From: Phycisphaerae bacterium
GTDB lineage: Bacteria > Planctomycetota > Phycisphaerae > UBA1845 > PWPN01
DNA: 43,184 nt
NCBI GenBank assembly: GCA_012729395.1
Contig: JAAYDF010000114.1
Span: forward strand, 1 to 43,184
Direction of reading: 5' to 3'
Of the stretch, positions 1 to 1,026 are shown piece by piece; position 1 is the first letter of the stretch, and each line of letters begins with the position of its first letter. Below the pieces are notes generated by a model, which searched no databases, was not told the origin of the DNA, and worked only from the letters and a program-made list of their open reading frames with translations. The position numbers were made by a program, and so were the translations under genes.

Positions 1-112
1 CCGGCCTAAGCCGAAATCATACGCGAACGCGAGGCTCAACACCAGCAGTGCGGCCTGCGCGAGCGGTTAAACTCCGCGCGTCATGACCCCTCGCCGCACG
101 GCAGTACCATTC

Positions 113-185
113 GTGTCAGGAACCTTTGTTTGGCTGATCGGCGGGATTGGCGGTTGCCGATCAGCCAAACAAAGGTTCCTGACAC
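113..185. repeat. Perfect 30-bp inverted repeat (REP/RAYT-like palindrome)
   Basis: Positions 113-142 and 156-185 are exact reverse complements, with a 13-base loop at 143-155. Outer ends read GTGTCAGGAACC...GGTTCCTGACAC. It sits four bases past the stop of the LolA-like gene on the minus strand, so it could act as its transcript end, but no T-run follows the stem on that strand. Perfect 30-bp arms are longer than ordinary terminators and look like a mobile palindromic element. A remnant of a REP-associated transposase lies at the other end of the window. Confidence 0.85.
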
Positions 186-189
186 CTTT

Positions 190-1026
190 TTAGGGGTTGT
201 CGGCAGGGGGGAGGGGGATGGTGTCGGTCTCGTAGCCGGAGAGGTCGGGCAGGTTGAGCAGGCTCTCGACCAGGCCGGGGTTCACCTTGATGTCCTCAAA
301 GGAGGCGATGATCTCGTTGCCCTCTTGCTTTTCGCGGGTCTGGACACGGACGGGCAGATCGAGCGTCTTGTCGATGTAGAAGTGCACGGTGTCGTATTTG
401 CGGGCCATCTCAGAATCTGGTCTGGGCGTGCATTCGAGATGGTCGGTGTGCTTGGGGTCTTCGGTTTTTGGGGGCAAGACCTTTACGCTGAAGTGCTGGA
501 GGATGTCGGCCTTGCGTTGGCCGAAAGGCAACGGGAAGGGTCCCTGTCCGAGCTTGAAGACTTCGAGTGTTTCGCCGGGGCGTACGATCTCTCGGCGGGT
601 AATGGTAGCGGTGGTTTCGCGGGCCTCGATGTACCATCGTCCGTCGAAGACGTGCCACTGCTTGCGACGAGTGGTGATGCCCTCGTGTCTAAAACGGTCG
701 AACTCGATGAAGAACCGTGGGTTGGGCGAGGCCTGCTTGAAGCGGAGGATGCCGCGATGCTCCTGGCGGTCTTCGAGGACAGGGTCGATCTTGATGAACT
801 CGATCTTGGCCTCGATGCTGTCAATCTTGTCACCCTTGGCCTGGAGGCGATCGAGGATGCGTTCGACGGCGGGATCGAGGGGGGGCTCGGGCGGCTCGGC
901 TGGGGCGGTGGTGGTGGCCGGCTGCGTGGCGACCTCCTCGGCCGGTGCCCAAGCCGATGGGCACAGGATGGCCAGCAGAATCGCGAGTTGCGCGTACATC
1001 ACGAGATGTCTGCCAAGTCCGTTCAC
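190..1026 (-). CDS. Secreted LolA-like (outer-membrane lipoprotein-sorting family) protein
   Basis: The 278-residue product starts with a signal peptide (hydrophobic stretch about residues 9-27, ending near AWA/PAEE), then a Thr/Pro/Ala-rich linker and a globular domain. The domain has the alternating-strand pattern of LolA/LolB-fold proteins: an early segment on a computed quantity to be conserved (IDSIEAKIEF), a central FDGRWYIEAR and a late TLDLPVRVQTRE strand. Planctomycetes carry many such LolA-like proteins; whether this one carries lipoproteins is unknown. I kept the GTG start at 1026 because AAGGGG lies eight bases upstream; an ATG at 999 would also give a signal peptide. The gene stands alone, facing away from cobA-hemD. 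Confidence 0.6.
   Translation of the reverse strand: MNGLGRHLVMYAQLAILLAILCPSAWAPAEEVATQPATTTAPAEPPEPPLDPAVERILDRLQAKGDKIDSIEAKIEFIKIDPVLEDRQEHRGILRFKQASPNPRFFIEFDRFRHEGITTRRKQWHVFDGRWYIEARETTATITRREIVRPGETLEVFKLGQGPFPLPFGQRKADILQHFSVKVLPPKTEDPKHTDHLECTPRPDSEMARKYDTVHFYIDKTLDLPVRVQTREKQEGNEIIASFEDIKVNPGLVESLLNLPDLSGYETDTIPLPPADNP

Follow-up and report, generated by a model that had tools for sequence, protein, structure and literature searches.

A perfect palindrome bordered by an insertion sequence end: a probable REPIN-like dimer of a RAYT-associated repeat in a Phycisphaerae bacterium

Why does a perfect palindrome with 30-bp arms stand close to a contig edge in a Phycisphaerae bacterium, and is it connected with a REP-associated tyrosine transposase (RAYT)? 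The window, that is, the whole stretch of DNA analyzed here (43,184 nt), corresponds to contig C78 of a 5.74-Mb genome in 370 contigs. Within it, positions 113–142 pair with 156–185 at 30 of 30 bases across a 13-nt loop, just as a first-pass annotation had described. This is the longest perfect local inverted repeat of the window, the next longest measuring 13 and 11 bp, and three Markov-chain shuffles of the window yielded maxima of 11, 10, and 14 bp. The RNA fold of positions 101–200 reaches −63.0 kcal/mol on the plus strand and −59.5 kcal/mol on the minus strand (z = −10.5 and −13.2, respectively; 200 shuffles). What that annotation overlooked is an insertion sequence (IS) end and a target duplication at the left boundary: the left limit of the 30-bp palindrome is the boundary of the IS end at 1–112. 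The features of this region are as follows.

1–112, plus strand: type A end of a multicopy IS, probably of the IS4 family, with its interior beyond the contig edge
94–112, plus strand: 19-bp terminal inverted repeat CCGCACGGCAGTACCATTC, common to 18 type A and 16 type B ends
113–123, plus strand: GTGTCAGGAAC, putative target duplication of 11 bp that forms the head of the left REP as well
113–127, plus strand: left REP/terminal repeat GTGTCAGGAACCTTT, its outer A-tract displaced by the IS (consensus from 26–27 pairs)
128–170, no strand: copy-specific inner stem (15 bp) and 13-nt loop, perfectly paired
171–191, minus strand: right REP/terminal repeat, inverted, with outer T-tract, AAAGGTTCCTGACACCTTTTT
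190–1026, minus strand: neighboring ORF of 278 aa, whose TAA stop (190–192) overlaps the T-tract; the coding score favors the minus strand

The neighboring ORF has no Pfam match. Further along the window, a 24-bp tandem repeat of about five units (1118–1237), each with a small CAAC...GTTG inverted repeat, lies upstream of a gene encoding a fusion of tetrapyrrole methylase and uroporphyrinogen-III synthase.

Our findings make it very probable that the palindrome is a REPIN-like dimer of a TIRYT-type RAYT repeat, with an IS4-like element inserted later. The dimer would consist of two inverted copies of the REP/terminal repeat AAAAGGTGTCAGGAACCTTT belonging to a TIRYT-type RAYT. The RAYT encoded on contig C122 would recognize the folded single-stranded repeat, cut and rejoin it, and spread non-autonomous dimers; an IS4-like element would subsequently have entered the locus at the outer edge of the left REP, duplicating 11 bp of target.

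The argument begins with the ends of the palindrome. In the window, exact GTGTCAGGAACC occurs solely at these two ends, and the genome holds 62 exact copies (30 on the plus and 32 on the minus strand; none of the reversed control), mostly arranged as inverted pairs 65–99 bp long. A sister repeat, GGTGTCAGGATGATTTT, is present in 135 genome copies at one mismatch or fewer (66 plus and 69 minus; reversed control, 0). We collected at least 27 distinct inverted pairs of the first family and at least 51 of the sister family, some of them nested and the latter drawn from fetched loci among the first 100 of the 135 places listed; the simple pairs with flanks taken for analysis number 26 and 50, respectively. 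An inward-facing partner accompanies 51 of the 61 distinct half-sites of the first repeat, and the remaining 10 have none. The constant part of the first-family dimers is their ends, with the sequence AAAAGGTGTCAGGAACCTTT, and the inner stem varies. Uninterrupted copies elsewhere in the genome extend outward as AAAAGGTGTC.../...GACACCTTTT. This is the layout of a REPIN: an inverted doublet folding into one hairpin, with conserved ends. The collected copies have neither a GTAG nor a GTGG foot, the repeat starting instead with AAAAGGTGTC, and it is not a canonical GTAG REP. The suggestion that the end motif might be the hallmark of a family is thus borne out by its genome copies, which also occur around RAYT genes. 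A genome-wide count of the palindrome, in which uniqueness was to speak against it, gives a divided answer: the ends are far from unique, and the full-length sequence (101–197) finds its sole identical match in the window itself.

Several further observations concern the repeats themselves. The length of the dimers shows unconvincing helical phasing (resultant 0.18 at 11 bp, n = 76). In the source genome, partial repeat heads (AAAGGTG-like) lie a few bases outside the full repeat in 16 of 140 outer flanks, compared with 2.1 expected from shuffles, for instance at dimers L029, L049, and L053; RAYT loci L241, L260, L267, and L290, elsewhere, show comparable partial copies in tandem on visual inspection. 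Such heads are possibly the trace of insertion or slippage. Among 100 relatives from other genera, GTGTCAGGAACC is present in 33, and more than five copies are found only in G016, which has 30.

The genome also encodes the enzymes expected to accompany such repeats. It contains 11 matches to PF01797, 10 of them above the cut-off. The RAYT on contig C122 is intact (231 aa) and has the repeat of the window, in exact form, 58 nt upstream of its start, with a degenerate copy (one mismatch) past its stop, so that a full-length RAYT flanked by the palindrome's repeat, as sought by the first-pass annotation, does exist. The C260 RAYT, also intact (229 aa), carries 22-bp perfect inverted copies of GGTGTCAGGATGATTTT on both sides. 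The RAYTs of C122, C260, and C207 match Pfam Y1_Tnp above its cut-off, and NCBIfam REP_Tyr_transpos gives 63 and 56 bits for the first two, under its cut-off of 80. Their alignment shows invariant H60/H62 (MPNHWH) and Y122, the latter being the presumed catalytic tyrosine. Pfam reveals no HTH domain in these RAYTs, and phmmer found no match among solved structures (PDB) at E 0.01. These proteins possess a Y1 HUH domain with an intact HxH motif and a downstream tyrosine, as in RAYTs and TIRYTs, and the C122 and C260 genes stand between inverted copies of the repeats that are scattered through the genome in the 62 and 135 copies counted above. The C122 gene is likely the cognate RAYT of the repeat in the window. 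The proposal that the hairpin is a RAYT substrate therefore holds as far as the ends are repeated and intact RAYTs carry them; that a RAYT acts on the hairpin itself is what we infer from this arrangement. As a separate observation, the C207 gene (locus L062) is a third intact RAYT with its own repeat type, AAAGGGGACGCAGCTCTTTTT.

A RAYT remnant at 41.6 kb in the window had been put forward as the partner of the palindrome. The remnant is real: 48–49 of its residues align with RAYTs of the source genome at 46% and 49% identity (E 3e-13 and 6e-13, as single comparisons), and the likeness stops short of the HUH motif. It has no Pfam match at E 0.1 and no NCBIfam match at E 0.01. The repeat is absent from the roughly 120 nt upstream of it, and the window has no exact copy close by. 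Truncated before the HUH motif and lacking the repeat in that upstream stretch, it was rejected as the cognate RAYT, and its proposed link to the palindrome falls in favor of the C122 gene.

The left boundary of the palindrome is explained by the IS. The type A end is found at 18 contig ends, including that of the window, and the sequence that follows differs by contig; 16 other contig ends (type B) carry CCGCACGGCAGTACCATTC in a different upstream context. Since CCGCACGGCAGTACCATTC is common to two end types in different contexts, these are the two ends of one element bearing terminal inverted repeats. Repeats of the GTGTCAGGA type adjoin 15 of the 18 type A and 13 of the 16 type B ends (28/34, counting that of the window), and six of the 34 ends lie in other sequences; the element has a preference for such repeats as insertion targets, and the assembly is interrupted where its ends lie. 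Four pairs of ends can be assigned without ambiguity, their duplications measuring 11, 12, 12, and 11 bp; further pairings, over 10 or 11 bp, are equivocal. The window's own end has three candidate partners, since three type B ends begin with GTTCCTGACAC, the reverse complement of GTGTCAGGAAC. With the duplication located on GTGTCAGGAAC, neither arm of the palindrome is lost, and only its outer left A-tract is displaced.

Target duplications of about 10–12 bp are typical of the IS4 family, and terminal inverted repeats together with duplications in this range are what we observe. The multicopy element is probably IS4-like. A 27-aa stretch at the type B end weakly matches seven plasmid records (58–62.5% identity, E 1–7), two of which are annotated as IS4-family transposase, and in one record this weak match runs up to the C-terminal end of the gene. 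The interior of the element and its transposase gene were not found in the assembly. Among 149 other genomes, seven have a single match to the IS with two mismatches, fewer than the 12 genomes with matches to the reversed control. An IS110-type (bridge-RNA) element was also considered and set aside in view of the true terminal inverted repeats and the 11–12-bp duplications.

The association between repeat and transposase extends beyond the source genome. A scan of other genomes with the alignment of the three RAYTs retained 79 loci from the best 80 of 564 relatives, largely in Planctomycetota and Nitrospirota, and the same or related repeats occur at RAYT homologues of these two phyla and of other bacteria. 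Within these loci from the best 80 of 564 relatives, a strict pattern places the RAYT gene inside an inverted pair at 33 of the 79, the flank having been too short at 8 of the 79 in the first repeat test. Of the loci, 70 yield a usable protein, and the motif lies upstream in 50 of these; 33 of the 50 motifs start with GGTGTCAGG. On a RAYT tree, repeat type changes seven times, whereas none of 200 shuffles needed fewer than 13 changes (n = 53); removing the rows of the source genome, whose three repeat-type labels were assigned by hand, gives six changes compared with a minimum of 12 (n = 50). The tree comes from a quick search of rows from the best 80 of 564 relatives, with SH-aLRT as sole support, and 32 of 70 inner branches are open. 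Repeat type follows RAYT phylogeny, as co-evolution would have it. Additionally, loci L350–L352 and L242, from one other genome and one related contig, carry dimers that are all 87–88 bp long, with AT-rich, strongly diverged spacers and conserved ends.

These distributions bear on a different view, in which the hairpins are mainly terminators or mRNA stabilizers under selection, their ends a favored stem foot and the RAYT incidental. The structure at 113–191, a GC-rich hairpin and then a T-tract, would fit an intrinsic terminator. A/T tracts are found at both feet, the site lies just past a stop codon, and the folds are strong; the orientation of 28 classified pairs is convergent in 10, tandem in 12, and divergent in 6. 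This orientation is a codon-usage guess trained on five ORFs of the window, in which 31 of the 59 pairs with enough flank were unclassifiable and 17 of 76 pairs had too little flank. However, a promoter and terminator scan covering loops of 3–8 listed nothing at the 113–185 hairpin, and such a function needs neither 62 and 135 near-identical ends nor a common repeat around RAYT genes in many phyla. We consider it unlikely that transcript function accounts for these hairpins. Located at the adjacent gene's 3' end, the hairpin may nevertheless also end or stabilize that transcript, a plausible role that can coexist with its being a RAYT dimer.

Under the RAYT-dimer reading, the arms still call for an explanation. 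At inner positions 6–20, 273 of 390 cells pair in the 26 first-family pairs, compared with 131.9 ± 10.4 when right arms are reassigned to other copies, and 352 of 645 cells pair in the sister family, compared with 248.2 ± 11.4; in neither family did any of 2000 permutations reach the observed value. For the sister family, the inner and outer tests used 43 of the 50 pairs, the inner test needing sufficient length. Perfect stems of at least 22 bp occur in 11 of the 26 first-family pairs, the longest reaching 35 bp. When copies are compared two by two, their inner sequences resemble each other in only 2 of 325 comparisons in the first family and in 47 of 1035 in the sister family, many of the latter inside one 83-nt subfamily. 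Pairing also continues outward: 137 of 264 cells in the outer flanks are self-complementary in the first family (91.3 ± 7.2 permuted; 22 of the 26 pairs, excluding those flanked by the IS), as are 198 of 516 in the sister family (160.9 ± 10.0 permuted), again with 0 of 2000 permutations reaching either value.

Such self-complementary outer flanks, seen at short dimers of both families in the source genome, would be expected if the RAYT inserted dimers into existing hairpins, the outer stem coming from the target and the inner one from the element; copy L028, with its 25-nt perfect outer palindrome, fits this as well. Inner stems, however, should then travel with the element, and they are unrelated between copies. 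Furthermore, the outer flanks from other genomes show no pairing beyond that of permuted flanks, as seen past the A-run in 31 RAYT-bearing elements and in 23 short pairs (83 of 276 cells, 75.1 ± 7.5 permuted). Insertion into hairpins is accordingly an improbable origin for these palindromes.

The inner arms of the same 23 short pairs show little or no excess, with 37 of 108 cells pairing at positions 6–14 (29.7 ± 4.9 permuted, n = 12) and 45 of 120 at positions 6–20 (34.8 ± 4.6 permuted, n = 8; 50 of 2000 permutations reach 45). Long arms are therefore not general to the repeat family, and the copy-specific perfect inner stem is a feature of the source genome that is not evident in the others. 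From this comparison across different genomes, with small numbers, the long arms look like something that arose on short dimers in the source genome, and neither a rule of the family nor a trait of insertion targets. The perfect inner stems are most simply explained by homogenization of the arms after insertion, through template switching between inverted arms, and/or by selection for pairing; in yeasts, template switching is described as homogenizing inverted-repeat arms (PMC8604942). A bolder and less probable proposal is that, in the source genome, each locus has had its dimer arms converted, inward and outward, into long perfect palindromes through the copying of one arm onto the other (by template switching or by a strand-copying step of the RAYT). 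The repeat might then be a seed that makes hairpins from unrelated neighboring DNA, tolerated in a lineage often without detected SbcD, a subunit of the palindrome nuclease. SbcD has no match at E 0.001 in the source genome, and 13 of 14 control genomes match. Loss of SbcD as a peculiarity of the source genome was rejected, as 22 of the 40 genomes searched, the source genome included, likewise have no match and only two have one above the cut-off; its absence is therefore at most permissive.

That the perfect palindrome is an artefact of assembly or of the IS end, as a contig starting inside a collapsed repeat and a left edge at the IS boundary might imply, is hardly credible, given like dimers away from contig ends with perfect stems of up to 35 bp.

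As a REPIN-like dimer of a RAYT repeat, the palindrome can be set beside several known systems; a literature text search for the sequence of the repeat gave no REP-related match. Di Nocera et al. 2013 (PMC3733652) describe RAYT-like genes framed by terminal inverted repeats (TIRtron/TIRYT), with dimers elsewhere, and both traits are found in our system. The TIRYT motif, GGGGWSAS, resembles the GGGGTCAGG/GGGGACGG variants around homologues, whereas the main repeat, GGTGTCAGGAACC, departs from it at the third base, and the inner stems of the source genome differ in being copy-specific and often perfect. REPINs (Bertels and Rainey 2011, PMC3116915) are inverted REP doublets whose ends are conserved and whose spacer is looser, with compensatory changes and a predicted hairpin. 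Our dimers share the inverted arrangement, ends conserved over the spacer, and hairpin formation, but they lack a GTAG-type foot, their first-family spacers go beyond reduced conservation in showing no relation from copy to copy, and perfect stems of 22 bp or more occur in 11/26 first-family pairs.

Most TIRYTs are placed in TnpAREP subclass 2.1 by Quentin et al. 2018 (PMC6006769). The likeness to this subclass lies in an HUH-Y1 protein with a C-terminal extension and in inverted repeats replacing canonical REPs, and the difference in the absence of an HTH domain, by Pfam, from the RAYTs of the source genome. REPs are also described as IS targets, for example that of ISRm22 of the IS4 family (Tobes and Pareja 2006, PMC1525189). 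In both cases, an IS has inserted many times at one set position of a REP and left target duplications. In contrast, the duplications are 11–12 bp here and 6 bp there, insertion is at the outer end of the repeat here and at the palindrome axis there, and 6 of 34 ends here lie in other sequences.

Taken together, these comparisons describe a new repeat family of a familiar RAYT-associated kind, with unusual arms, and not a new type of system. They add to the REP/RAYT picture a widespread non-GTAG repeat family with its transposases in Planctomycetota, Nitrospirota, and others, in which repeat type and RAYT go together as well, and provide a clear case of an IS preferring such repeats. The perfect stems of the source genome, specific to each copy and numbering in the dozens, make it possible to test how REP dimers acquire and retain their arms.
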